Shown piece after piece: positions 7,740 through 22,902 of a DNA stretch of 64,000 nt. The number at the start of each line of letters is the position of its first letter. Position 1 is the first letter of the stretch. The translations under genes and the position numbers were made by a program. Below the pieces are notes generated by a model. It searched no databases. It worked only from the letters and a program-made list of their open reading frames with translations, and was not told the DNA's origin. Source of the stretch: Pseudomonas fluorescens (GTDB taxonomy: Bacteria; Pseudomonadota; Gammaproteobacteria; Pseudomonadales; Pseudomonadaceae); NCBI RefSeq assembly GCF_001623525.1, contig NZ_CP015225.1, positions 4,414,501-4,478,500 of the forward strand. The letters are read 5' to 3'.

Positions 7740-8687
7740 TCAGTTCTTGAGACTGGCCTGCACCGCCGCCACGCCATCCTTGCCATCGAAGCTCATGACA
7801 CCAGCCAACCAGCGCTGAAGATCCTCGGGATGCTCGCGCAGCCATTGCCGGGCGACGTCCTGGGGCGTCTTGCGCTCCATGATCGGCACCATCAACTGAC
7901 TCTCCTGGGCGGCGGTGAAGGTGAGGTTCTCCAGCAAGCGGTTCACGTTCGGGCAGCGCTGGGCATAGTCCGGCGCGGTCACGGTGGAGACCGTTGCGGC
8001 GCCTTCGTTCGGGCCATAGACATCTTCACTGCCGGTCAGGTAGGTGATGTGCATGTTGATGTTCATCGGGTGCGGGGTCCAGCCGACGAAGACCACGAAC
8101 TCCTTGCGATTCACCGCGCGCTGCACCGCCGCCAGCATGCCTGCTTCGCCGGATTCGATCAGCTTGAAGTCCTTGAGGCCGAAGTGGTTGGTCTCGATCA
8201 TGGTCTTGATGGTGGTGTTGGCACCGCTGCCCGGCTCGATGCCGTAGATCTTGCCGCCAAGCTGATCCTTGAACCGGGCGATGTCGGCAAAGGTCTTGAG
8301 CCCTGCCGCCGCCACGTAGTCGGGTACCGCCAGGGTGGCCTGGGCATCGGCCAGGCTTGGCTTGTCCAATACCTTCACTTGGTTGGCGGCCAGGAATGGC
8401 GCGATGTTCTTGTCCATCGCCGGTTTCCAGTAGCCCAGGAAGATGTCGAGGCGCTTGTCGCGGATGCCGGCAAAGATGATCTGCTGCACGGCGCTGGTCT
8501 GCTTGCTGTCGTAGCCCAGACCGGTGAGCAGCACATCGGCCATGCCGCTGGTGGCGATCACATCGGTCCAGTTGACCACGCCCATGCGCACGGTCTGGCA
8601 CGACGCAGGCTCGGCGGCCATCGCCCCGGCGCTCAAGAGGGTGGTACCGCAGAGGATCGACAGACAGCGTTTGAACAGTCTTTTCAT
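7740..8687 (-). CDS. Choline/betaine-type ABC transporter substrate-binding protein (orphan)
   Basis: This 315-residue periplasmic binding protein belongs to the OpuAC/ChoX class that captures quaternary amines (choline, betaine, carnitine). It has a signal peptide (MKRLFKRCLS followed by a hydrophobic core ending AMAAEP). The mature part carries family motifs such as GVVNWTDV, LGYWKPAMD and FVGWTPHPMN, whose Trp/Tyr residues fit an aromatic cage. No permease or ATPase gene lies beside it, so it may feed a shared transporter elsewhere. HutWV, about 6 kb away, belongs to the same transporter superfamily, but a functional link is only speculation. The frame extends upstream into a REP element, so ATG 8687 is the start. 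Confidence 0.85.
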   Translation of the reverse strand: MKRLFKRCLSILCGTTLLSAGAMAAEPASCQTVRMGVVNWTDVIATSGMADVLLTGLGYDSKQTSAVQQIIFAGIRDKRLDIFLGYWKPAMDKNIAPFLAANQVKVLDKPSLADAQATLAVPDYVAAAGLKTFADIARFKDQLGGKIYGIEPGSGANTTIKTMIETNHFGLKDFKLIESGEAGMLAAVQRAVNRKEFVVFVGWTPHPMNINMHITYLTGSEDVYGPNEGAATVSTVTAPDYAQRCPNVNRLLENLTFTAAQESQLMVPIMERKTPQDVARQWLREHPEDLQRWLAGVMSFDGKDGVAAVQASLKN

Positions 8688-8835
8688 CGGGAAGGTCTCG
8701 TGCGGCAGCGGATTATTGTAGGTCGGTGTCTTGCTGCACCGTGCCCAAAACATTACGCAGCGCCGAGGGGCTGAAGATGAACTGTGGCGACTCGGTTTTG
8801 CACGGTGGCGACAGGTTGAGGGCACTGAAGACCTC

Positions 8836-8948: not shown

Positions 8949-9752
8949 TTAATGCTTGTAAGCCTGCCGCCCCCACGCCAACAAGCCTTCCAGCAATTGC
9001 CTGAGCACCACTTGCGTCGGCTCCGCCAGGTCGGCGCGATAGTTGAACGGTTCGTACTCTTCCATGTAGGTGCTCTGGCACAGTTCCAGTTGCACCGCGT
9101 GGATGTCTTCGGCCGGATTACCGTAGTGCCGCGTAATGTGTCCGCCCTTGAACCGCCCGTTGAGCACGTGGGTGAACTGACCATGGCGAGCGCAGATGGC
9201 TTCGAGCTGGCTGGCCAGGGTCGGGTCGCAACTGGCACCGTTGAACGTGCCGAGGTTGAAGTCCGGCAGCTTGCCGTCGAACAGGTGCGGGATCACCGAA
9301 CGGATCGAATGGGCGTCGAACAGCAAGGCATAGCCGAACTCGGCCTTGAGCCGCGCCAGTTCCTGCTGCAGCGCCTGGTGGTAAGGCATCCAGATCTGTT
9401 GCAGATACCTCGCCCGCTCCTCGGCCGACGGTTCCAGCCCTTGGCGAAACAACGGCACGCCATCGAACAGCGTCGCCGGGTACAAACCGGTGGTGGCGCC
9501 GACGTACATCGGCTTGTCATCGGAGGGGCGGTTCAGGTCGACGACGAACCGTGAGTACTCGGCGGCCAGGGTGCTGGCGCCCAGCTCAGCGGCGAACTCG
9601 TAGAGCCTGGGAATGTGCCAATCGGTGTCTGGCAGGCTTTGCGCCTCGGGGATCAGCCCGGCCTGTACCGCCGGAGTCAGGCGCAGGCCGGCGTGAGGCA
9701 TGCTGATCAACAGCGGCACGCGCCCTTGCATGAAATTCAGGACCTTCTCCAC
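8949..9752 (-). CDS. hutG: N-formylglutamate deformylase
   Basis: This 267-residue enzyme hydrolyses N-formylglutamate to glutamate and formate, the last step of the five-step histidine route. Motifs SMPHAGL, DTDWHI, VVDLNRPSD and LLFDAHSIRS are characteristic and include metal-binding residues. The start is a GTG at 9752 preceded by GAGGAG, a strong Shine-Dalgarno. The in-frame ORF extends further up to 10343, but that overlaps hutI and is rejected. It lies 11 bases after hutI and is the last gene of the hutU-to-hutG unit. Confidence 0.95.
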   Translation of the reverse strand: MEKVLNFMQGRVPLLISMPHAGLRLTPAVQAGLIPEAQSLPDTDWHIPRLYEFAAELGASTLAAEYSRFVVDLNRPSDDKPMYVGATTGLYPATLFDGVPLFRQGLEPSAEERARYLQQIWMPYHQALQQELARLKAEFGYALLFDAHSIRSVIPHLFDGKLPDFNLGTFNGASCDPTLASQLEAICARHGQFTHVLNGRFKGGHITRHYGNPAEDIHAVQLELCQSTYMEEYEPFNYRADLAEPTQVVLRQLLEGLLAWGRQAYKH

Positions 9753-9763
9753 AACCGTTCTCC

Positions 9764-10966
9764 TCAATCGATTTCCACGCCGTGACGCACGACGCGTTTT
9801 TCCAGATCGCCACCGAGCCAGTACGCCAGATCGGCCGGCCGGTCGATGTGCCAGGCGACAAAATCCGCCACTTTGCCGGCCTCCAGCGAACCATGGGTTT
9901 GCGCCATGCCCAGGGCCTGGGCCGCATGAATGGTTACCCCGGCCAGGGCTTCTTCCGGGGTCATCCGAAAGCACGTACACGCCATGTTCAACATCAAGCG
10001 CAGCGACAGGGCCGGCGAAGTGCCGGGGTTGAGGTCGCTGGCCACGGCGATTTTCACACCGTGCTTGCGCAGGGCTTCCATGGGCGGCAGCTGGGTTTCC
10101 CGCAGGAAATAAAACGCCCCCGGCAGCAGCACCGCCACGGTGCCGGAAGCGGCCATGGCCTTGGCATCGTCCTCGGTCATGAACTCCAGGTGATCGGCCG
10201 ACAGCGCCTGGTAACGCGCCGCCAGGCTGGAACCGTGCAGCGACGACAATTGCTCGGCGTGCAGCTTCACCGGCAGCCCAAGTTGTTGCGCCGTGATAAA
10301 CACCCGCTCGACCTGCGCCGGGGAAAACGCCAGGTATTCGCAAAAGGCATCCACCGCATCCACCAGTCCTTCGGCTGCCAAGGCCGGAAGCATCTCGCTG
10401 CAGATGTGTTCGATGTAGTCGTCGGCGCGATCCTTGTATTCCGGCGGCAAAGCGTGGGCCGCCAGACAGGTGCTGCGTACGCTGACTGGCAGCTCAGCGC
10501 CGAGGCGGCGGATGACGCGCAGGATCTTGCGCTCGCTGGCCAGGTCCAGGCCGTAACCGGATTTGATTTCCACCGTGGTCACGCCGTCGCGCATCAAGCT
10601 TCCCAGGCGCTTGGCGGCGCTGGCGAACAGCTCGTCTTCACTGGCGGCGCGGGTGGCGCGTACGGTGCTGGCGATGCCGCCGCCGGCTGCGGCAATCTCG
10701 GCGTAGCTGACGCCTTGCAGGCGCTGCTCGAACTCACCGCTGCGGTTGCCGCCAAATACCGTATGGGTGTGACAGTCGATCAGCCCCGGCGTGACCCAGG
10801 CGCCCTTGAGGTCGTTGACCGCCGGGTAGTCACCCGTCGGCAATTCGGCACGCGGGCCGATCCATTGGATGTGCTTGCCCTGGGTGACGATGGCGGCGTC
10901 TTCGATGATCGAGTAGACGCCCTGGGCCATGGTGGCGGCGTGGCAGTTTTGCCAGAGGGTTTTCAT
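9764..10966 (-). CDS. hutI: Imidazolonepropionase
   Basis: This 400-residue amidohydrolase opens the ring of imidazolone propionate to formiminoglutamate. The metal-binding [12 protein letters not shown] motif is present near residue 65, and the family motifs KSGYGL and SDLNPGT are clear. The length is standard. It lies between hutH (upstream, separated by three small hairpins) and hutG (11-base gap), and so belongs to the hut polycistron. Confidence 0.97.
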
Positions 10967-10985
10967 TGATGTCCTCCGTCAGGAT

Positions 10986-11090
10986 CATTCCCACGCTCCG
11001 CGTGGGAATGCAGTCCGGGACGCTCCGCGTCCCTCGTAGAGCGGAACGCAGAGGGTCCCATGAGGCGTTCCCACGCAGAGCGTGGGGACG
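10986..11090. repeat. Three-hairpin intergenic repeat, family C
   Basis: Three short hairpins fill the hutH-hutI gap: 10986-11010 (11-bp arms, TCC loop), 11017-11033 (7-bp arms, TCC loop) and 11066-11090 (11-bp arms with one mismatch, AGA loop). The common core is TTCCCACGC/GCGTGGGAA. It differs from the A and B REP families elsewhere in the window. Inside a polycistronic message it could act as an RNA-stability or processing element. Confidence 0.8.
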
Positions 11091-11102
11091 ATCGAATCAG
11101 CC

Positions 11103-12635
11103 TTACAGGCTCGGCAACAACTGCGCCGTGACCAGCTCGTTCAGGCACCGACTCGCCAGCAATTCACTGGCCGCATTGATGTCCGGCGCAAAGAAGCGGT
11201 CCTTCTCGTAAAACGGCACTTGCGCACGCAACAGCCCCCGGGCCCGCTCCAGCTTCGTGGAGGTCTTCAAGCCGCCACGCAGGTCCAGCCCCTGGCAAGC
11301 CGCAAGCCATTCCACTGCGAGGATCCCACGGGTGTTTTCGGCCATTTCCCACAGACGCTTGCCGGCAGCCGGGGCCATGGAAACGTGGTCTTCCTGGTTG
11401 GCCGAGGTCGGCAGGCTGTCCACCGAATGGGGATGGGACAGCGCTTTGTTTTCACTGGCCAGGGCCGCCGCGGTGACCTGGGCGATCATGAAGCCGGAGT
11501 TCACCCCGCCATTGGCCACCAGGAACGGCGGCAACTGCGACATGTGCTTGTCCATCATCAACGAAATCCGGCGCTCGCTCAGGGAGCCGATTTCGGCAAT
11601 CGCCAAGGCCATGTTGTCGGCGGCCATCGCCACCGGTTCGGCGTGGAAGTTGCCGCCGGAAATCACGTCACCCTCGGCGGCGAACACCAGCGGGTTATCC
11701 GACACCGCGTTGGCCTCGATCACCAGCACTTCGGCGGCCTGGCGGAACTGGGTCAGACAGGCACCCATCACTTGCGGTTGGCAGCGCAGGGAGTACGGGT
11801 CCTGGACCTTGTCGCAGTTCTGGTGCGAATCGGAGACTTCGCTGCGCTCGCCCAGCAGATCGCGGTAGGCAGCGGCGGCGTCGATCTGGCCTTTCTGGCC
11901 ACGGGCGGCATGGATGCGTGCATCGAATGGCGAACGCGAGCCGAGCACCGCTTCCACCGTGAGGCCACCCAGGGCCAGGGCACCGGCAAACAGGTCTTCG
12001 CCTTCGAACAGGCCACGCAGGGCAAACGCGGTGGACACCTGAGTGCCGTTGAGCAGCGCCAAGCCTTCTTTCGCGGCCAGGGTCAGCGGCGCGAGGCCGG
12101 CCACTTTCAGTGCCTCGACAGCCGGCAACCATTCGCCTTTATAGCGCGCCTTGCCTTCGCCCAGCAGCACCAGGGACATGTGGGCCAGCGGGGCCAAGTC
12201 GCCGGAAGCACCGACCGAACCTTTAAGCGGTATGTGCGGATAGACCTCGGCATTGATCAGCGCGATCAGCGCATCGATCACCTGCCGACGGATGCCGGAG
12301 AAACCCCGGCTCAGGCTGTTGACCTTGAGCACCATGACCAGCCGCACCAGCGCATCGCTGATCGGCTCGCCCACGCCGGCGGCATGGGACAGCACCAGGG
12401 AACGCTGCAGGTTTTCCAGGTCTTCGCTGGCGATGCGGGTCGAGGCCAGCAGGCCGAAACCGGTGTTGATGCCGTAGGCGGTACGGTTCTCGGCGAGGAT
12501 CTGTTCCACGCAGGCGACGCTGGCCTCGATCTGCGCCGACGCGCTGGCGTCGAGGCTCAAGGTCACCGGTTGCTGATAGATGTCACGCAATTGAGCCAGG
12601 CTCAATTGGCCGGGAATCAGGTTTAAGGCAGTCAT
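11103..12635 (-). CDS. hutH: Histidine ammonia-lyase (active type)
   Basis: This 510-residue histidase converts histidine to urocanate and ammonia. The MIO-forming Ala143-Ser144-Gly145 is intact within [14 protein letters not shown]. Other active-site segments are also present: AYGINTGFG (with the catalytic Tyr), [18 protein letters not shown] and NQEDHVSM. The ATG at 12635 is preceded by AAGGAGC. It follows the hutH-like gene after 129 bases and precedes hutI. This copy is the one I expect to supply histidase activity. In P. fluorescens SBW25 nomenclature it corresponds to hutH2, as I recall. Confidence 0.97.
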
Positions 12636-12764
12636 GTATTGCTCCTTTTGAGAGTTTTGTTTTTACCCGCCAGTCGCTCCGGAATGTTCCGTTATCCGTC
12701 ACCTTCGCCTTTTGGGCGATGCTTTATGGGCAATAGGTGCCTTGGCACGCTGGCGCTATTTTGA

Positions 12765-14288
12765 TCAATTCAAATTCGGTAATACGCGGTGCAGCACGCT
12801 CGGGTCTTTAAGCAAGCCGGCGGCACTGGCGATGTCCGGCGCCAGCCAGCGATCCTGGTCGTAGGCCGGCACGCGCTCGCGCAGCAGTTTCCAAGCGATG
12901 TCGGTGCCGGTGCCGAAGCGCTGGGCCTTGAGAAATTCAAAGGCTTGGGCCGCCAGCAGGTATTCGATGGCGAGGATCTGCGTGCAGTTTTCCAGCGCCC
13001 TGTGCAGCTTCAAGGCCGCGTTGGTGCCCATGCTCAAATGATCTTCTTGCAGGCCCGAGGTGACGAAGTTGTCGAGCACCGCCGGTTGCGCCAGTTGCTT
13101 GTTTTCCGCGCACAGCGACGCGGCGACGTATTGCACGATCATCATCCCCGAGTTCACCCCGGGGTTGGCTACCAGGAAGGCCGGCAGGCCGCTGACGTGG
13201 GGGTTGATCAAGCGGTCGAGACGACGCTCGGCGATGGAGCCGATCTCAGCCATGGCAATCGCCAGCAGGTCCGCCGCCATCGCCACCGACTGACCGTGGG
13301 GGTTGGCCTGGGACATCACCCGGAAATGCTCAGGCGTGCCGAGCAACAGCGGGTTGTCGGTGGCGGCGTTGAGTTCGGTTTCGATCTGTTGCCGCGCATG
13401 CGCCAGCTGATCGCGAGCGGCACCGTGCACCTGCGGAATCGAGCGGATACTCAAGGCGTCCTGGGTACGAATGCCCAAGCTCGAGGCGATGACTTCGCTG
13501 CCGTCGAGCAAGGCCCGCAAGTTGACCCCGACCTGCTGCATGCCCGGGTGCGGCTTGAGGGCGATGATCTCGGCATCGAACGCGGCAATCTGCCCGCGCT
13601 GGGCCTCGAAGCTCATGGCGCCGATCACGTCGGCCCATTGCACCAGCCGCGTCGCATCGGCCAGGGCCAGGCAACTGAGGCCGGTCATGCACGGGGTGCC
13701 GTTGACCAGGCACAAACCGTCCTTGGCGCCCAACTGCACCGGTTGCAAGCCTTCGGCGGCCAAGGCCTGCTGAGCTGGCATGATTTGCCCGCGATAGCTG
13801 ACCTGGCCAACGCCCAGCAGCGCGATGCTGATGTGGGCCATGTGGGTCAGGTAACCCACCGAACCCTGGGACGGCACTTGCGGTGTGATACCCCGGTTGA
13901 GCAATGCCAGCAACGCCTCGACCACCCGGCGATGGATGCCGGACTTGCCTTGGCTGTAGTTGAGAATGGCGGCGCAGATAATCGCCCGGGTCTGTTCATC
14001 GGAAAGCGGCGCACCGACGCCACAGGCATGGCTGAGCAGGGTGTTGCGCGACAGTTGGCTGAGCTGTTCGTCCTTGAGCGAAACATTGCACAAGGCCCCC
14101 AGGCCGGTGTTGACGCCATAGGCGCGCTCGCCGCTTTCGACGATGCGCTGGACGATGGCCTGGGCATTGTCGATCCGCGCCCAGGCCTGGGCCGACAGCT
14201 CAAGCTCGGCACCGAAGCGGGCGACGGCGACCACATCCTGCCAACGCAACGGGGCGTCGGCGATTACGATTTTTTCAGCCTGGGACAT
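12765..14288 (-). CDS. Histidine ammonia-lyase paralogue lacking the MIO triad
   Basis: This 507-residue member of the aromatic amino-acid lyase family is co-directional with hutV and hutH. It keeps much of the fold and several active-site segments (AYGVNTGLG, SHACGVG, LQEDHLSM). At the position of [14 protein letters not shown] it reads GSVGYLTHMAH (142-152), so the Ala-Ser-Gly that cyclises to MIO is missing. QDPYSLRC is replaced by QDALSIRS, so that active-site Tyr is also lost. The DNA across the site is in frame with no stop, so this is not a decayed copy. I chose ATG 14288 because GAGG lies 8 bases upstream; ATG 14300 lacks one. It may be regulatory, structural or have another activity. 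It is probably the gene called hutH1 in SBW25. Confidence 0.9.
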   Translation of the reverse strand: MSQAEKIVIADAPLRWQDVVAVARFGAELELSAQAWARIDNAQAIVQRIVESGERAYGVNTGLGALCNVSLKDEQLSQLSRNTLLSHACGVGAPLSDEQTRAIICAAILNYSQGKSGIHRRVVEALLALLNRGITPQVPSQGSVGYLTHMAHISIALLGVGQVSYRGQIMPAQQALAAEGLQPVQLGAKDGLCLVNGTPCMTGLSCLALADATRLVQWADVIGAMSFEAQRGQIAAFDAEIIALKPHPGMQQVGVNLRALLDGSEVIASSLGIRTQDALSIRSIPQVHGAARDQLAHARQQIETELNAATDNPLLLGTPEHFRVMSQANPHGQSVAMAADLLAIAMAEIGSIAERRLDRLINPHVSGLPAFLVANPGVNSGMMIVQYVAASLCAENKQLAQPAVLDNFVTSGLQEDHLSMGTNAALKLHRALENCTQILAIEYLLAAQAFEFLKAQRFGTGTDIAWKLLRERVPAYDQDRWLAPDIASAAGLLKDPSVLHRVLPNLN

Positions 14289-14344
14289 CTTCAACCTCAT
14301 GGAAAATTCATCTCAGCAGCACATCTGGCTCAAGGCATAGCCCT

Positions 14345-14439
14345 TGTGGCGAGGGAGCTTGCTCCCGCTTGAGTGCGCAGCGCTCACAAGATTTTTGGGG
14401 CGGCTGCGCCACCCAGCGGGAGCAAGCTCCCTCGCCACA
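14345..14439. repeat. REP/BIME pair, family A
   Basis: Inverted GTGGCGAGGGAGC-type cores lie in the hutV to hutH-like intercistronic gap. They are internal to the presumed polycistron. Confidence 0.9.
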
Positions 14440-14462
14440 AAAGCACACCGACCACCACAGCC

Positions 14463-15289
<827 letters not shown>

Positions 15290-15293
<4 letters not shown>

Positions 15294-16141
15294 TTGCTCA
15301 CCTCATGCCGAGGACGACCATAGGCCTGGGTAATACGGTCGATGACCACGGCGAGAATCACGATCGCCAGCCCGGCTTCCAGGCCGCGGCCGACGTTGAG
15401 GGTCTGGATGCCCACCAGCACGTCTTCACCCAGGCCACGGGCGCCGATCATCGAGGCGATGACCACCATCGACAGGGCCATCATGGTGGTCTGGTTGATC
15501 CCGGCCATGATGCTCGGCAGGGCCAGGGGCAGTTGCACGCCGAACAACTGTTGCCAGCGGTTGGCGCCGAAGGCGTTGATGGCTTCCATCACTTCGCCGT
15601 CTACCTGGCGGATGCCCAGGTCGGTCAGGCGGATCAATGGCGGCGCGGCATAGATCACCGTGGCGAAAATCGCCGGGACCTTGCCCAGGCCGAACAGCAT
15701 CAACACCGGAATCAGGTACACGAAGCTCGGCATGGTCTGCATGATGTCCAGCAGCGGCATCAGCACCGAACGCAGGCGATTGCTGCGCGCCGAGAGGATG
15801 CCCAGGGGAATGCCGATCAACACCGAGATCAGCGTCGCCACCAGCATCAGGGCGAGGGTCTGCATCAGTTTGTCCCACAGGCCCACCGCGCCCACCAGGA
15901 ACAGCAGGCCGACGATCACTGCCGTGGCCACGACCTTGCGGGTGGCGTGCCAGGCAATGCCGCCGACGATGGCCAGCATCAGCCACCAGGGCGCCATGCG
16001 CAGCAGGCCTTCGAGGTTGACGATGGCCCACAGCAAGGTGTCGGAGATGTGCCGGAACACATCGCCATAGTTGGTCACCAGGGCGTCGACCCAACCGTTG
16101 ACCCAGTCGGCGATGGAGAAGGTAAAGCTTTCGGGAAACAT
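15290..16141 (-). CDS. hutW: ABC transporter permease of hut cluster
   Basis: This 283-residue ProW/OpuAB-type permease has about seven hydrophobic segments. Its central EAA-type loop reads [24 protein letters not shown], recognisable by the EAxxAxGA...QLPLALP pattern. It overlaps hutV by 4 bases and follows hutX after 69 bases. It would form the inner-membrane channel for the HutXWV importer. The start has only a weak Shine-Dalgarno (GAGAG). Confidence 0.92.
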
Positions 16142-16210
16142 AAGAGACTCTCGATCAGGTGGATGCAGTGAACGTCCCGGCCAACCCTAGGATTGGCCGG
16201 GGGATTCGAC

Positions 16211-17179
16211 CTACAGAGCCGCGTCGATTTTCTTGGCAGCGTCTTCACTGACCCAGGCGTGCCAGACTTCAGGATGTTCCTTCAGGAAGATCTTCGCCAG
16301 TTTCGGCGACTCGATCCGCTCCTTGGCCATGCGCCCGAGGTTCTGGTTCAGGATATCGATGGGCAGGTTGACCTTTTCCAGCACCGTCACCAATTCAGGT
16401 GCCTCGTCGTGGAAGGTCTTGGACAGGCCGACCTTGATGCTCACGCTTTTATCCACGCCCGGTTTTTCTTCCAGTTTCACCAGGTCCACCTGGCCCATCA
16501 GCGGCGTCGGCGACCAGTAGTAGAACAGGATCGGCTCGCCACGCTTGTAGCTCGACAGCACCGCCGCATCCAGGGCCGGGCCGGTGCCTGGACGGAAGTT
16601 GGTGTAGGTTTTTTCCAGGCCATAGCTTTTCAGCATTTCGCTGTTGTCCAGCTCACAGGTCCAACCGGCCGGGCAGTTGTAGAAACGGCCCTTGGACGGC
16701 TCTTCCGGGTCCTTGAACACGGCAGCGTATTGACCCAGGTCGGCGATGTTCTTCAGGCCCGGGGCCTTGGCTTCGAGCTTGCGCTTGGCGTCGCCCTCAA
16801 CCACGTAGCGCGGCACATACCAGCCTTCGATGGCCCCCACCACCGGGGCGCCGACGCCGACCACCTTGCCGGCCTTCTCGGCCTTGTTCCACACCTCGCT
16901 GCGGCCGACCCACTCTTCGGCAAACACCTGGATGTCGTTGCTGCTCAGGGCATTCTCCATGGTGATGGAGTTGCCTGGCAGGCTGTCGGTCTTGCAGCCG
17001 TAGCCTTTTTCCAGCACCACTTGCAGGACGTCGGTCAGCAGCATGCCGCTTTCCCAGTTCAGGCCGGCGAACTTCACCGGTTTGCCCGACTCGCACCAAC
17101 CCGCCGCTTGTGTGGCGCCGGCGCCGGCCAGCAGGCCCATGGAAAGCAGTGTGGTCAGCAGGGTCTTGTTCGACTTCAT
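16211..17179 (-). CDS. hutX: ABC transporter substrate-binding protein of hut cluster
   Basis: This 322-residue periplasmic binding protein has a signal peptide ending GATQAAG around residue 26. The mature domain is of the OpuAC/ProX class (NWESGMLLTDVLQVVLEKG, YYWSPTPLMG). A Shine-Dalgarno AGGAGC lies upstream of ATG 17179. It heads the hutXWV transport set inside the hut operon. Histidine is the likely ligand by context, although the family mostly binds quaternary amines, so ligand identity should be treated as inferred. Confidence 0.9.
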   Translation of the reverse strand: MKSNKTLLTTLLSMGLLAGAGATQAAGWCESGKPVKFAGLNWESGMLLTDVLQVVLEKGYGCKTDSLPGNSITMENALSSNDIQVFAEEWVGRSEVWNKAEKAGKVVGVGAPVVGAIEGWYVPRYVVEGDAKRKLEAKAPGLKNIADLGQYAAVFKDPEEPSKGRFYNCPAGWTCELDNSEMLKSYGLEKTYTNFRPGTGPALDAAVLSSYKRGEPILFYYWSPTPLMGQVDLVKLEEKPGVDKSVSIKVGLSKTFHDEAPELVTVLEKVNLPIDILNQNLGRMAKERIESPKLAKIFLKEHPEVWHAWVSEDAAKKIDAAL

Positions 17180-17249
17180 TATGTGACGCTCCTAATCAGT
17201 TGGATTGGCTTACGGCAGTCAAGAGGCATCCAGCCCTGTCAACGTCCCA

Positions 17250-18716
17250 TCAGACCGCTTGGATGCGGCCCGCCCTGCTCGGTTGTGCGTCAACCGCGTC
17301 CTGCTCGAGCGGCAGGATCAATTGATCGGGTACAGCGCTGTGCCATTTCTTGGCGGCGACGTAATACAGCCCCGCCGGGACCACCAGACCGATGATCCAG
17401 GAAATGTCCACACCGCCCATGGCTCCCACCAGCGGACCGGTATAGAACTTGGTGGCGATAAATGGCAGTTGAACCAGTACACCGAAGACATAGACGCTGA
17501 TACCCAAGGCGTTCCAACGACCGTAGCGGCCATTCGGATCGGCCAGTGCCGGCACGTCATAGCGCTCGCGGGTGATGCAGTAGTAGTCCACCAGGTTGAT
17601 CGCGCTCCAAGGCGTAAAGAACGCCAGCAAGAACAGGATGAAGGACTTGAACGCACCGAGGAACGAGTGCTGGCCGAGCAGCGCGATCAGCGTCGCAGCG
17701 CCGACGATGACCAGCACGAAGACCAGACGCTGCAAGCGCGTGACGTTCAGGTGACCACGAAAACCGCTGATGATGGTCGCGATGCACATGAAGCTGCCGT
17801 AGGAGTTCAGCGTGGAGATGGTGACCTTGCCGAATGCGATGCTGAAGTACAGCAGCGCAGCCGTGGCGCCGGCACCGCCCAGGCCCACGATGTAGGCCAC
17901 TTCGTGACCGGCGAACTGCCCATTGGCCGAGGCCGCGGCAAACACGCCGAGGATCATCGCCACCTGCGCGCCGATGACTGAACCTGCGCCTGCGGCAAAA
18001 AAGGTTTTCACCGAGGAAGTTTGGCTCGGCAGGTAACGCGAATAGTCCGCCACATAGGGGCCGAAAGCGATCTGCCAGGAGGCCGCGAGCGACACCGCCA
18101 GCAGGAAGCTGCTCCAACTGAAATGGCGGATTTGCAGGAGTGCGCCAACGTCCGTCTGGCTGATCAGGCGAGCGAACAGGTAAACGAAGGCGATCACACC
18201 CAGGATGCTGGCGACACGGCCAATGAAGTGAATCACCCGATAACCAAGCACCGTGACCAACACGATGACACTGGCGAAAATGAGGATGCCGACACTGTCG
18301 CTGACATCAAACAACTGGCCCAGCGCCTGACCGGAAAGCACGGTGCCCGTCGCGGTGAAACCCAGGTACATCAGGCACACCAGCACGATCGGGATGGCCA
18401 CGCCATACACACCGAACTGCACCCGACTGGAGATCATCTGCGGCAGGCCAAGCTTGGGCCCTTGCGCGGCATGCAGGGCCATGACGCCACCGCCGAGCAC
18501 TTGGCCGATCAGCAAACCGATCAACGACCAGAACACATCACCGCCAAGCACCACCGCCAATGCACCGGTGACAATGGCAGTGATTTGCAGGTTGGCCCCC
18601 ATCCAGAGGGTGAACTGGCTCAACAGCCGACCGTGTCGCTCCGCTTCCGGGATGTAGTCGATCGAACGTTTCTCGATCAACGGCTTGCTGCTTGCGCGTG
18701 TGCTACTGACAGCCAT
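17250..18716 (-). CDS. hutT: NCS1-family permease, probable urocanate transporter
   Basis: This 488-residue cytosine/purine/allantoin-type (NCS1) permease has about 12 membrane segments. An N-terminal cytoplasmic stretch (SIDYIPEAERHGR) precedes the first helix (FTLWMGANLQITAI). Located directly after hutU, it corresponds to the permease called HutTu in P. fluorescens SBW25, where it moves urocanate. That assignment is by position and family, not from substrate residues. A REP pair separates it from hutU, but the direction and spacing still fit one operon. Confidence 0.85.
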   Translation of the reverse strand: MAVSSTRASSKPLIEKRSIDYIPEAERHGRLLSQFTLWMGANLQITAIVTGALAVVLGGDVFWSLIGLLIGQVLGGGVMALHAAQGPKLGLPQMISSRVQFGVYGVAIPIVLVCLMYLGFTATGTVLSGQALGQLFDVSDSVGILIFASVIVLVTVLGYRVIHFIGRVASILGVIAFVYLFARLISQTDVGALLQIRHFSWSSFLLAVSLAASWQIAFGPYVADYSRYLPSQTSSVKTFFAAGAGSVIGAQVAMILGVFAAASANGQFAGHEVAYIVGLGGAGATAALLYFSIAFGKVTISTLNSYGSFMCIATIISGFRGHLNVTRLQRLVFVLVIVGAATLIALLGQHSFLGAFKSFILFLLAFFTPWSAINLVDYYCITRERYDVPALADPNGRYGRWNALGISVYVFGVLVQLPFIATKFYTGPLVGAMGGVDISWIIGLVVPAGLYYVAAKKWHSAVPDQLILPLEQDAVDAQPSRAGRIQAV

Positions 18717-18766
18717 GGTTCAACCTCTGTGGATTGTTCTGGAATTCATTTTCGCCGCTGCTTCCC

Positions 18767-18856
18767 TGTGGGAGCGAGCTTGCTCGCGATAGCGGTGGGT
18801 CAGCAGACAATGCTGTTGACTGACACGCCCTCATCGCGAGCAAGCTCGCTCCCACA
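18767..18856. repeat. REP/BIME pair, family B (TGTGGGAGCGAGC type)
   Basis: Two inverted copies of tgtgggagcgagcttgctcg flank about 40 bases, in the hutU-hutT gap. This second palindrome family recurs at 24281, 27511, 29363, 34534, 47916, 49283 and 60091. Confidence 0.9.
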
Positions 18857-18868
18857 AGGGGGCCGGGG

Positions 18869-20557
18869 TTACTTGCCGGTGATCATCGGCAAGTTCAGCC
18901 CCTGTTCCTTGGCACAATCGATCGCGATCTGGTAACCGGCATCGGCATGGCGCATCACCCCAGTACCCGGATCGTTGTGCAGTACGCGAGCAATGCGCTC
19001 GGCCGCCTCGTCGGTACCGTCGCAGACGATCACCATGCCCGAGTGCTGGGAGAAGCCCATGCCGACGCCGCCACCGTGGTGCAGCGACACCCAGGTCGCG
19101 CCGCTGGCGGTGTTGAGCAAGGCGTTGAGCAACGGCCAGTCGGAGACCGCATCGGAACCGTCCTGCATGGATTCGGTTTCACGGTTGGGGCTGGCCACGG
19201 AACCGGAGTCCAGATGGTCGCGACCGATCACGATCGGTGCCGACAATTCGCCGCTGCGCACCATCTCGTTGAACGCCAGGCCCAGCTTGGCGCGCTGGCC
19301 CAGGCCGACCCAGCAGATCCGTGCCGGCAAACCCTGGAAGCTGATGCGCTCGCGGGCCATGTCCAGCCAGTTGTGCAGGTGAGCGTCGTCGGGGATCAGT
19401 TCCTTGACCTTGGCGTCGGTCTTGTAGATGTCCTGCGGATCACCGGACAGCGCGGCCCAGCGGAACGGGCCGATACCGCGGCAGAACAGCGGACGGATAT
19501 AGGCCGGGACGAAACCAGGGAAGTCGAAGGCATTTTCGACGCCCTCTTCCTGGGCCATCTGGCGGATGTTGTTGCCGTAGTCGAAAGTCGGCACGCCCAT
19601 TTTCTGAAAGGCCAGCATGGCTTTGACGTGGATGGCCATCGATTGCTTGGCGGCCTTCACCACGGCGGCAGGTTCGGTCTTGGCGCGGGCACGGTACTCG
19701 TCCCAGGTCCAGCCGGCCGGCAGGTAGCCGTTGAGCGGGTCGTGGGCGCTGGTCTGGTCGGTGACCATGTCCGGACGCACACCACGACGGACCATTTCCG
19801 GCAGGATCTCGGCAGCGTTCCCGCACAGGGCGATGGAAATCGCCTTGCCTTCGGCGGTGTATTTCTCGATGCGCGCCAGGGCGTCGTCGAGGTCGGTGGC
19901 TTGCTCGTCGACATAGCGGGTTTTCAGGCGGAAATCGATGCTCACCTGCTGGCACTCGATGTTCAGCGAGCACGCACCGGCCAGAGTCGCGGCCAAGGGT
20001 TGCGCACCGCCCATGCCGCCCAGGCCGGCGGTCAGGACCCAGCGCCCCTTGAGGTTGGAGTCGTAGTGCTGGCGACCAGCCTCGACGAAAGTTTCGTAGG
20101 TACCCTGCACGATGCCCTGGCTGCCGATGTAGATCCAGCTGCCGGCGGTCATCTGGCCGTACATGGCCAGGCCCTTGGCGTCGAGTTCGTTGAAGTGCTC
20201 CCAACTGGCCCAGTGCGGCACCAGGTTGGAGTTGGCGATCAGGACGCGAGGGGCGTTGCTGTGGGTCTTGAACACACCCACCGGCTTGCCGGATTGCACC
20301 AGCAGGGTTTCGTCGTCGTTCAGGTTGGTCAGGCTTTCGACGATCTTGTCGTAGCACTCCCAATTGCGCGCCGCGCGACCTATGCCACCGTAGACCACCA
20401 GTTCCTTGGGGTTCTCGGCCACTTCCGGGTCGAGGTTGTTCATCAGCATGCGCAGCGGCGCTTCAGTCAGCCAGCTCTTGGCGGTCAGCGTGTTACCGCG
20501 AGGGGCACGGATTTCAACGTCACGGTATTTTTCAGGTTTGCGGGTAGCGTCGGTCAC
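18869..20557 (-). CDS. hutU: Urocanate hydratase
   Basis: This 562-residue NAD-dependent enzyme hydrates urocanate to imidazolone propionate, step two of histidine breakdown. The sequence is highly typical: [17 protein letters not shown] near the N-terminus, [12 protein letters not shown] for NAD binding, and [15 protein letters not shown] near the C-terminus. The length is standard. It is the first gene of the long hutU-to-hutG unit. Its leader carries a sigma-54 promoter with an overlapping HutC-type operator. Confidence 0.98.
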
Positions 20558-20656
20558 AGCAAAAACTCCTCAGCGATCAATCCAGACCAGCCCGGGCAGT
20601 GGGCAGCGATTTAGCGAACGTTGCGTTGAATATCAGTGACTCATACGCATACGTCT

Positions 20657-20676
20657 TTACTTGTATGTACAAGCAT
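20657..20676 (-). promoter_or_regulatory. HutC operator at the hutU promoter
   Basis: The palindrome CTTGTA-TG-TACAAG occupies 20660-20673. Read on the minus strand with flanks it is ATGCTTGTACATACAAGTA, which closely matches the HutC operator I recall for Pseudomonas putida and Klebsiella hut promoters. It covers the predicted start point of the sigma-54 promoter, so bound HutC would block initiation until urocanate releases it. Confidence 0.88.
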
Positions 20677-20678
20677 AT

Positions 20679-20693
20679 GCAATCAAGCGGCCA
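20679..20693 (-). promoter_or_regulatory. Sigma-54 promoter of hutU
   Basis: On the minus strand the sequence is TGGCCGCTTGATTGC, with GG and GC at the required 10-base internal spacing, giving a -24/-12 element. The predicted start is near 20667, about 110 bases upstream of the hutU ATG. Sigma-54 dependence with CbrB/NtrC activators is known for hut in SBW25. Activator sites further upstream are not resolved here. Confidence 0.8.
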
Positions 20694-20892
20694 ACTTGTT
20701 GGAGGTGGTGTTCAGAAACGGTTGGGGAATTGGCTGAAAGCCTTGTGATTTCAGGGCTGCTGAGCGGCATGAAATTTTTTAAGAGGGTTTTCGAGGGGAG
20801 AATCGGAGGTTCACAGAAGCATGGTGTTGCGCCACGCTGGGGCATTCGGTAACAAATTGGTGCGAAAAGAGGAAACAGCGAGGACGAGGCTT

Positions 20893-21464
20893 TTTGTGGC
20901 GAGGGAGCTTGCTCCCGCTGGGCTGCGCAGCAGCCCCCTCTCAAGCTCACTCAATCAACCTGATCCACCGCGTCGCCGGGTTTTAGGGCCGCTTCGCGCC
21001 CCAGCGGGAGCAAGCTCCCTCGCCACGGGAATTGGGCATGGCGCGGGTTAGGGGAATGCCTCGAATCAGTGTCAGTTTCAAGAGCTAATCGGTTGGTTGA
21101 CCGGGATGCTTTTGTGGCGAGGGAGCTTGCTCCCGCTGGGCTGCGCAGCAGCCCCCTCTCAAGCTCATTCAATCAACCTGTTCCACCGCGTTGCCGGGTT
21201 TTAGGGCCGCTGCGCGCCCCAGCGGGAGCAAGCTCCCTCGCCACGGGGAATTGGGCACGGAGTGGGTTAGGGGAATGCCTTGAATCGGTGTCAGTTTCAA
21301 GAGCAAATCGGTTGGTTGACCGGGATGCTTTTGTGGCGAGGGAGCTTGCTCCCGCTGGGCTGCGCAGCAGCCCCTCTCAAGCTCACTCAATCAACCTGAT
21401 CTACCGTGTCGCCGGGTTCTAGGGGCGCTGCGCGCCCCAGCGGGAGCAAGCTCCCTCGCCACAA
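20893..21464. repeat. Tandem array of a 218-bp REP-containing unit (about 2.6 copies)
   Basis: A unit containing a full family-A REP pair plus a linker is repeated head-to-tail with starts at about 20893, 21111 and 21330 (periods 218 and 219). The linker repeats too (for example CGGTTGGTTGACCGGGATGC), so the array arose by duplication of a larger segment and not by separate REP insertions. It fills the space between the hutD stop and the hutU upstream region. No gene is supported in it. Open frames through it are translated repeats. Confidence 0.92.
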
Positions 21465-21482
21465 GAGTGTGTTAGCCGGAAA

Positions 21483-22052
21483 TCAATGGGCCGTCAGCTC
21501 AATCACGCAGCATTGACCGTGAGTGGAGACATCCACCAACCCGGTGTTACCGCTCAGTTGCAAACAGTCGTAGAGGCCCAAGTCCACAGCGGACTCACCG
21601 AACTTGATAGCCAGCCCCGGGGCGGCACTGAACACCAGCACCGTTTCCGCGTCACTGAAAAACCGCTGCTGGCCGCCCAACCACTGCAACCGCGCCCGGT
21701 AACGTTGCGGCGCGTAGATCAGGTTGAAGTCACGAATCGGTCCGCCCAGCAGCGTGCAAAACACATGGCTCTCGCCGCTGAACGCAAAAGGGTCCAGCGG
21801 ATGCAGAGGTCGCGTGGCCTGGCCATCGACGTTCAGCGTCATGCCGCTCCCCTGCAAGACACTGATGACCCGCTCGTAACCGGCGAAGGTGGAGAAACCG
21901 CCCGACTCACCGATGTCGGCAATCGACAGCCGCCAGCCGAAACCTTCCAGGCCGGTGCCGGCATCGCGAGTGATTTCTTCGGTGCTGCCGCCACCGTTTT
22001 TCCACGGCATGCGTGGGTAGTCTGTCGCGCGTAAAACCTTCAAATGGCTCAT
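21483..22052 (-). CDS. hutD: HutD family cupin protein
   Basis: This 189-residue cupin-fold protein of the HutD/Ves family has the conserved opening RMPWKNGGGSTEEI. In SBW25 HutD is reported to limit hut operon expression and to bind small ligands. Its mechanism is not settled. Its ATG overlaps the hutC stop (ATGA), forming a hutC-hutD unit. It is separated from hutU by over 900 bases containing the repeat array and the hutU promoter. Confidence 0.92.
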   Translation of the reverse strand: MSHLKVLRATDYPRMPWKNGGGSTEEITRDAGTGLEGFGWRLSIADIGESGGFSTFAGYERVISVLQGSGMTLNVDGQATRPLHPLDPFAFSGESHVFCTLLGGPIRDFNLIYAPQRYRARLQWLGGQQRFFSDAETVLVFSAAPGLAIKFGESAVDLGLYDCLQLSGNTGLVDVSTHGQCCVIELTAH

Positions 22053-22798
22053 TTATGAAAGCGCCCTTCCAGACTGTGACGGGAACCCGGATGGATCAGG
22101 CGCGCAGCGGTCACCGGCTGGCGCCCGGACCAGGTACGGCGGCGGATCAATAGACACGGCTCGCCCCTTTCGATCTGCAACAGCTTGCATTCACTTGGCT
22201 CGGCCAGGATCGCCTCGACCACATGCTCGCCCTCGGTCAGCGGCGCGACCTGGTTCAGATAGGCGTAGGGCGTTTGCACGGTGAAGTCCTGCTTGAGGTA
22301 GTCAGGCGCCACCAGCGCGTTGACGAAACGGTCCTCGATTTGCACGGGGATGTCGTTCTCGAAATGCACGATCAGCGAATGGAACACTTTCTGGCCTTCG
22401 CGCATATCCAGGGCCAGTGCCCGCTCGGAACCGGCCGCCTCTTCTTCCAGGGTGATGACCTTGCACGTGTGGCGATGACCGCGGGAGGCGATTTCGTCGG
22501 CGATGTTATGCACTTCGAACAACGCGGACTGACTCTTGGGCTCGGCCACGAAGGTGCCGACACCCTGCATGCGCACCAACAGGCCGTCGGCGGTCATTTC
22601 CCGCAGCGCACGGTTGATGGTCATGCGACTGAAGCCCAGTTGGCTGACCAGTTCGCTTTCCGACGGCACGCGGTAATGCGGCGGCCAGTTTCCACTGTCG
22701 ATCTGCTGGGTGATCATCTGTTTGACGCGGGCGTACAGGGGTGCCGGACTGTCACCCATGTTTGCGGCCAGCGGCGGTTTGGCAGGCGGAGTCGACAC
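22049..22798 (-). CDS. hutC: Histidine utilisation repressor
   Basis: This 249-residue GntR-family repressor has an N-terminal winged helix (LYARVKQMITQQID, then SESELVSQLGFSRMTINRALREM) and a C-terminal UTRA ligand domain that senses urocanate. I chose the GTG at 22798 (VSTPPAKPP) because AAGGA lies at proper distance. The frame continues to 22888, but the extra 30 residues would run through the operator region. It is divergent from hutF, with a shared control region, and coupled to hutD. Confidence 0.93.
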   Translation of the reverse strand: MSTPPAKPPLAANMGDSPAPLYARVKQMITQQIDSGNWPPHYRVPSESELVSQLGFSRMTINRALREMTADGLLVRMQGVGTFVAEPKSQSALFEVHNIADEIASRGHRHTCKVITLEEEAAGSERALALDMREGQKVFHSLIVHFENDIPVQIEDRFVNALVAPDYLKQDFTVQTPYAYLNQVAPLTEGEHVVEAILAEPSECKLLQIERGEPCLLIRRRTWSGRQPVTAARLIHPGSRHSLEGRFHK

Positions 22799-22862
22799 GG
22801 CGGTTCCTTGTTCTGCGGATAAGAATGCTAGCTTGCCGGAGTTTACCGGCCAGGCAAACGTC

Positions 22863-22878
22863 TGTATATGTATATACA
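22863..22878. promoter_or_regulatory. Candidate HutC site in hutC-hutF intergenic region
   Basis: The sequence TGTATATGTATATACA contains the perfect 10-bp palindrome TGTATATACA (22869-22878). It lies between the hutC GTG and the hutF ATG. It resembles the TGTA/TACA half-sites of the hutU operator, so one HutC dimer could control both directions, including its own gene. Confidence 0.7.
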
Positions 22879-22902
22879 AATTACGCACGATGAGGTTGAA
22901 CC

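Follow-up and report, generated by a model that had tools for sequence, protein, structure and literature searches.

The function we propose for HutH1, the product of a histidase-like gene in the hut operon of Pseudomonas fluorescens, is that of a MIO-independent hercynine trimethylamine-lyase, which probably converts hercynine to urocanate and trimethylamine. The proposal combines the deletion of the MIO triad, the replacement of the histidase Tyr280 by Leu, the retention of the other active-site residues, purifying selection on the gene, and the betaine-type importers found in its neighbourhood. The window, i.e. the whole stretch of 64,000 nucleotides that was analysed (NZ_CP015225.1), carries the genes in the order hutC-hutD-hutU-hutT-hutX-hutW-hutV-hutH1-hutH2-hutI-hutG on the minus strand.

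The hut operon and its second histidase-like gene

The features on which the analysis rests are the following.

7740..8810, minus strand: choline-type periplasmic binding protein after hutG, start approximate (TIGR03414 441.8 bits, above cut-off; PF04069)
8949..9758, minus strand: hutG, N-formylglutamate deformylase, start approximate (TIGR02017 395.7 bits)
9764..10966, minus strand: hutI, imidazolonepropionase (TIGR01224 492.4 bits)
11103..12635, minus strand: hutH2, canonical histidase with [14 protein letters not shown] (TIGR01225 724 bits; P. putida HAL, 1gkm, E 1.7e-274)
12765..14288, minus strand: hutH1, MIO-less aromatic-lyase-family protein of 507 aa, proposed hercynine trimethylamine-lyase (PF00221 561.8 bits)
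13440..13463, minus strand: QDALSIRS, in which Tyr280 of P. putida histidase is Leu278 and Arg283 is kept as Arg281 (alignment; coordinates converted from residue numbers)
13833..13865, minus strand: GSVGYLTHMAH, site of the missing MIO triad Ala-Ser-Gly (G000:C1:4428333-4428365)
14463..15293, minus strand: hutV, betaine/choline-family ABC ATPase (TIGR01186 368.6 bits, above cut-off)
15290..16141, minus strand: hutW, permease of the betaine/choline family (TIGR03416 293.7 bits, below the cut-off of 363)
16211..17179, minus strand: hutX, periplasmic binding protein with a glycine-betaine-type domain (PF04069 206.6 bits)
17250..18716, minus strand: hutT, NCS1-type, urocanate transporter HutTu by SBW25 gene order (TIGR00800 120 bits, below cut-off; name by analogy)
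18869..20557, minus strand: hutU, urocanate hydratase (hutU 1027.1 bits, cut-off 375)
21483..22888, minus strand: hutD and hutC (repressor), named by likeness and position

The hutH1 frame is open at 14300-12765 (-), without internal stop or frameshift, and, taken from the start at 14288, encodes the 507-aa form under which homologues are listed; the Pfam domain PF00221 (Lyase_aromatic) spans residues 13-469. Aligned with HutH2, the MIO site of HutH1 reads GSVGY---LTHMAH against [14 protein letters not shown]: Ala has become Tyr and Ser-Gly-Asp is gone, a net loss of three residues, which confirms the original prediction of a full-length histidase paralogue of the hut operon with its MIO triad deleted. 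The altered tyrosine segment that it described is equally real, the YSLRC of HutH2 (within QDPYSLRC) corresponding to LSIRS in HutH1 (within QDALSIRS), with Leu in place of Tyr280, as are the intact frame, the adjoining hutXWV genes and the retention of AYGVNTGLG, SHACGVG and QEDHLSM. The fold model (pLDDT 83.2, pTM 0.87) is similar to HAL structures and informs on the fold only, the stretches 319-322, 325-329 and 404-416, at or near the pocket, having pLDDT below 50.

HutXWV belongs to the OpuA/ProU betaine type by its OpuAC binding domain (PF04069) and its family ATPase (TIGR01186). Trp42, Trp90, Trp120 and Trp222 of HutX are invariant in 79/79 sequences and align with Trp residues of 7yle; these four residues would form a cage for quaternary ammonium. 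The choline-type protein at 7740-8810, which has no permease of its own and adjoins hutG in 38 of the 73 named loci that extend far enough to show it, is possibly an extra binding protein. Between hutV and hutH1 lies a REP-like inverted repeat (14344-14440; 38-nt arms, 89% complementary), of whose core the window contains 18 copies, with none expected by chance, also near 329, 7618, 8836, 20895-21463, 52291 and 62560; no Rfam match was obtained in 10900-21500.

A rebuilt active site under purifying selection

Tyr145 and His148, which occupy the position of the MIO loop, together with Leu278, Tyr386 and Leu412, are found in 25/25 rows of the HutH1 clade, and each differs from the residue that is uniform in six HutH2 rows. 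The MIO deletion and Leu278 are common to all 25, including the plasmid-borne copies of Burkholderia, Rhizobium, Sinorhizobium and Erwinia. Tyr56, His86, Asn195, Gln275, Arg281 and Glu414, which correspond to histidase Tyr53, His83, Asn195, Gln277, Arg283 and Glu414, are kept and invariant in a 17-row alignment. We take them to have the catalytic or substrate-binding roles that they have in histidase, so that the HutH1 pocket could still hold an imidazole-propionate skeleton. The altered part of the pocket is, judged from the alignment, the place of the amine and of its electrophile.

The DNA motif for GSVGY-x-x-HMAH is present in 104/149 Pseudomonas genomes; the same 104 give a best protein match of E <= 2.2e-181 (HutH1 rows at 58-100% identity), and the other 45 give none better than 6.1e-105. 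Across the phylum it occurs in 16 of 398 genomes, covering 8/212 genera. The genus-wide protein match and DNA motif count are free of the bias affecting the 81/81 motif count of the named loci and the window, which is not independent because YLTHMAHI was one of the six scan words; the 151/151 count is drawn from top-ranked matches with 78-96% identity to the window.

HutH1 is under purifying selection: the median pairwise dN/dS is 0.072 (3240 pairs; the 80 named loci and the window), to be compared with 0.046 for HutH2, 0.057 for HutX and 0.040 for HutU, the HutH2 set including one row of 80 that is the HutH1 copy of a contig-end locus and omitting one truncated HutH2. The alignment of homologues across Pseudomonas that had been suggested as a check thus yields a conserved deletion, conserved pocket residues and a ratio well below 1. 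A pseudogene or a sequencing error was ruled out, an early stop being found in 0/80 named hutH1 genes; the sole HutH1 row of the genus protein search flagged with an internal stop is that of genome G099.

Betaine-type importers beside HutH1 and the question of the substrate

We compared 102 HutH1 loci, consisting of 22 hand-picked diverse loci (nine low-identity Pseudomonas, nine of the 16 phylum motif matches and four from 896 plasmid records) and 80 named close relatives, with 20 control Pseudomonas hut loci chosen among the listed rows of the 45 genomes that lack HutH1. At a distance of no more than 6 kb, HutH1 is accompanied by an OpuA-type HutXWV in 82 loci, a HisJQMP importer in 11, a BCCT transporter in five and a GbcA-like Rieske oxygenase in two; the two loci with none of these are a 3.2 kb contig and a locus where the contig ends at HutH1. 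By equal criteria, none of the four occurs in any of the 20 controls, of which all have HutH2 and 19 have HutU; a generic ABC ATPase match (30%) in control L190 was not counted, and control L189 has hutT. These counts are to be read with the reservation that 80 of the 102 loci are not independent, because they are close relatives with one arrangement.

Two of the three importer types beside HutH1 are thus betaine families (82 OpuA and five BCCT loci of 102), which argues for hercynine, i.e. histidine betaine, as the substrate. In 5/5 cases the BCCT gene is located between hutU and hutH1. The GbcA-like oxygenase of two more loci (L089 and L090, members at 50% identity) also agrees with a betaine; a reductase and a mandelate-racemase-type enzyme are present in these loci as well. 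Against this stand the 11 loci with HisJQMP, a non-betaine family, and the report that HutXWV of SBW25 contributes to the uptake of histidine (PMC8871633, in excerpt).

The HisJQMP loci leave some room for a related reading, in which HutH1 would be a MIO-independent lyase producing urocanate from another histidine derivative, such as N-methyl- or N,N-dimethylhistidine or an imidazole-lactate ester. N-methyl-amino-acid oxidases scoring above cut-off adjoin HutH1 in L096 and L171, an observation that would suit this alternative and the hercynine lyase alike. The OpuA and BCCT families, however, indicate quaternary ammonium compounds, and secondary and tertiary amines are, by general chemistry, poorer leaving groups when MIO is absent, so we consider another derivative unlikely, though it is the best of the alternatives.

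The position of HutH2, next after HutH1 in 79/80 named loci, and its presence in 13/14 genomes queried could instead suggest for HutH1 a role without catalysis, as a partner, regulator or sensor for HutH2 or for uptake. Yet HutH2 lies inside the fetched stretch in only 7/22 diverse loci, no canonical HutH was found in genome G452 (discussed below), and the residues that are catalytic in histidase are kept; such a role is accordingly improbable. The same observations tell against three of the roles offered in the original prediction: a partner or subunit of HutH is disfavoured, in spite of the 13 genomes, and a ligand sensor or a binding protein would leave the kept catalytic residues unexplained. 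The best supported of its four readings is a lyase of different chemistry, here linked to uptake, given that the kept residues are under purifying selection and that the loss of MIO with Tyr replaced by Leu recurs in ergothionase; ergothionase, the betaine transporters and the wider taxonomy had no part in it.

The product side and genome G452

The product of HutH1 is most likely urocanate, to judge from the hydratases encoded with it. The window HutU scores 689.2 on the thiourocanate hydratase model, below its cut-off of 930, and the HutU of L116, a cluster in which HutH1 is the lyase, scores 945.2 for hutU and 662.7 for thiourocanate hydratase. In Burkholderia pyrrocinia (L170), HutH1 and an importer are followed by a HutC of their own above cut-off. 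Excerpts of PMC8871633 describe the induction of the hut genes by urocanate via HutC, and the title of a paper states that P. aeruginosa HutC senses PCA. The type of HutU and the HutC of B. pyrrocinia are what a hercynine lyase feeding the hut pathway would lead one to expect.

Several HutH1 loci appeared to lack a histidase and were dropped from consideration when HutH2 was found nearby or elsewhere in 13 of the 14 genomes queried; only G452 stands, and the case is therefore that of one genome. G452, 100% complete per its listing, has three family members. Its hut operon combines HutH1 with hutU, hutI, hutG, hutF, hutC, hutD and a BCCT gene; a separate ergothionase-like gene lies beside a weakly OsmF-like binding protein; and a MIO-bearing lyase encoded elsewhere scores best, below cut-off, on the tyrosine ammonia-lyase model and reaches 377.8 on the hutH model, below 539.15. 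The G452 hut operon may therefore run on a non-histidine substrate, unless HutH1 is a MIO-free histidase. In locus L120, an ergothionase-like lyase (L120:3510-5045; best PDB match 6s7j, E 1.4e-78) lies close to a HutH1 hut operon and adjoins a weakly OsmF-like binding protein (L120:2578-3465). In genome G080 (86% complete; L136 and L154), the HutH2 match is split in two, and a stop is flagged in one of the parts; its canonical histidase may therefore be broken.

A histidase working without MIO would account for a hut operon whose only lyase belongs to the HutH1 clade, and the NCBIfam hutH equivalog TIGR01225 (cut-off 539.15) does accept the window protein with 552.2. Histidases, on the other hand, depend on MIO, and Tyr280 is lost too. 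The model does not register the missing MIO; it gives clade members L168 and L120 449.0 and 494.5, below the cut-off, and accepts L091:6797-8326, a MIO-less protein of another clade, with 539.5; in the source databases, many members of the HutH1 clade are named 'histidine ammonia-lyase'. SBW25 hutH1 was reported as not required on histidine (PMC8871633, in excerpt), which speaks against a histidase, although HutH2 could mask such a role, and in favour of the hercynine activity, which, if true, would explain it. We regard a MIO-free histidase as very improbable.

The same low standing belongs to the idea that HutH1 is an ergothionase, acting on ergothioneine itself: it shares with T. denticola ergothionase (6s7j) the missing MIO and the Leu at position 280, but its identity to 6s7j is 27%, the HutU encoded with it falls outside the thiourocanate hydratase type, and G452 has its separate ergothionase-like gene. 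Thiourocanate hydratase (NF058530) is above cut-off in 5/398 genomes, with a lyase nearby in four of the five loci, and gave no match above cut-off in the window genome.

These four lyases have GS[IM]GCA-DIG at the MIO site and DPLSLR at Tyr280. Together with 6s7j, they indicate that MIO loss combined with Leu for Tyr280 is a signature of the known and probable trimethylamine lyases of this family, and HutH1 has both. In a 54-row tree, HutH1 forms one group (100/99) with the ergothionase-like rows outside, as in the other best tree. By parsimony one change suffices for the loss of MIO in HutH1 and the ergothionase rows, and AU tests reject neither a single origin (p 0.32) nor, in the 54-row tree, a clade uniting all Leu-280 rows (p 0.25), so that single and multiple losses are both possible. 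A further MIO-less group, clade B, adjoins HutH1 in this tree without firm support (87/82). Its members (L089:2885-4432, L091:6797-8329 and L092:6326-7810) read GSVGY---L..EGH and keep Tyr280, and that of L091 has beside it a HisJQMP-type importer and a true HutU of its own (1014.9 bits).

A model for the proposed hercynine trimethylamine-lyase

The model we propose starts with the import of hercynine, the imidazole betaine that would yield urocanate, by the OpuA-type HutXWV or, elsewhere, by a BCCT or HisJQMP transporter. By homology with histidase, Arg281 would hold the carboxylate of the substrate and His86 and Glu414 its imidazole, while Tyr56 and/or Glu414 would take the beta proton; the trimethylammonium group would occupy the space vacated by MIO and Tyr280, close to Tyr145, the new invariant residue. 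Histidase relies on MIO for the release of ammonium, which leaves poorly by itself. Trimethylammonium can depart without activation by MIO, and the MIO could therefore be lost and its space reused. The urocanate formed would be converted to glutamate via HutU, HutI, HutF and HutG and, as the hut inducer, would turn the operon on.

Extended to the whole clade, the model would make of the Pseudomonas 'second histidase' and its Burkholderia, Rhizobium, Sinorhizobium and Erwinia relatives a dedicated hercynine trimethylamine-lyase, i.e. a MIO-free entry to histidine catabolism by which histidine betaine would routinely supply carbon and nitrogen and would give rise to trimethylamine in soil; clade B, one locus of which has its own HutU, may act likewise on another derivative. 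We hold this wider view to be evenly balanced between right and wrong.

If the assignment is true, about 70% of the sampled Pseudomonas genomes (104/149) carry a mis-named enzyme. According to an excerpt of PMC4595634, histidine betaine released by a cyanobacterium is depleted in intact biocrust and was used by none of the isolates tested; HutH1 would then be a candidate consumer of the compound that vanishes there. In Pseudomonas sp. J380, both hutH copies are up under iron limitation (PMC8069873, in excerpt), a rise that is uninformative on the substrate.

PA5093 is presumably the second histidase-like gene of P. aeruginosa. An excerpt of PMC12772324 names it hutG, and the locus tag given there may therefore be a slip.

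Comparison with known systems

The fold, the family and the precedent of a MIO-free ergothionase are already known; a hercynine activity was not found in searches of open-licence literature, where no hercynine lyase is described among the titles listed on hercynine, urocanate and histidine betaine in Pseudomonas. The gene itself matches SBW25 hutH1 by the gene order described for that strain, with hutTu, hutXWV and hutH1 between hutU and the other hutH; the excerpted text presents it as a histidase and states no other role (PMC8871633). The GbcA and OpuA/BCCT systems are related to the neighbours of HutH1 and not to the lyase, the GbcA-like protein scoring 585.7, below its cut-off of 670, and the BCCT proteins remaining below the glycine-betaine BCCT cut-off.

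With the histidase of P. putida (HAL, 1b8f), HutH1 shares the aromatic-lyase fold and PF00221, but it differs by the absence of the MIO triad, by Leu at Tyr280 and Pro/Ala at Phe329, and by the new invariant Tyr145 and His148. By sequence it is nearer to the histidases (7tqr, E 6.6e-103) than to ergothionase (6s7j, E 1.8e-62), a point that weighs against the hercynine lyase. Ergothionase expels trimethylamine from ergothioneine without MIO (PMC13405746, in excerpt). Like HutH1, 6s7j lacks the MIO triad and has Leu for Tyr280 (QDPLSFR against QDALSIR), and it has IEDH at the Glu414 position; unlike HutH1, whose MIO loop is two residues shorter, it reads SSIGEGDI where MIO would form. It also retains Phe329, and Ser, not Asn, stands at the Asn195 site; these last two differences count against the proposal as well. 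HutH1 would work like ergothionase and be built like histidase, each of the two names failing at least one defining test. Could a lyase drop its protein-derived electrophile whenever the substrate brings a good leaving group? HutH1, set beside ergothionase, provides a test of this question.
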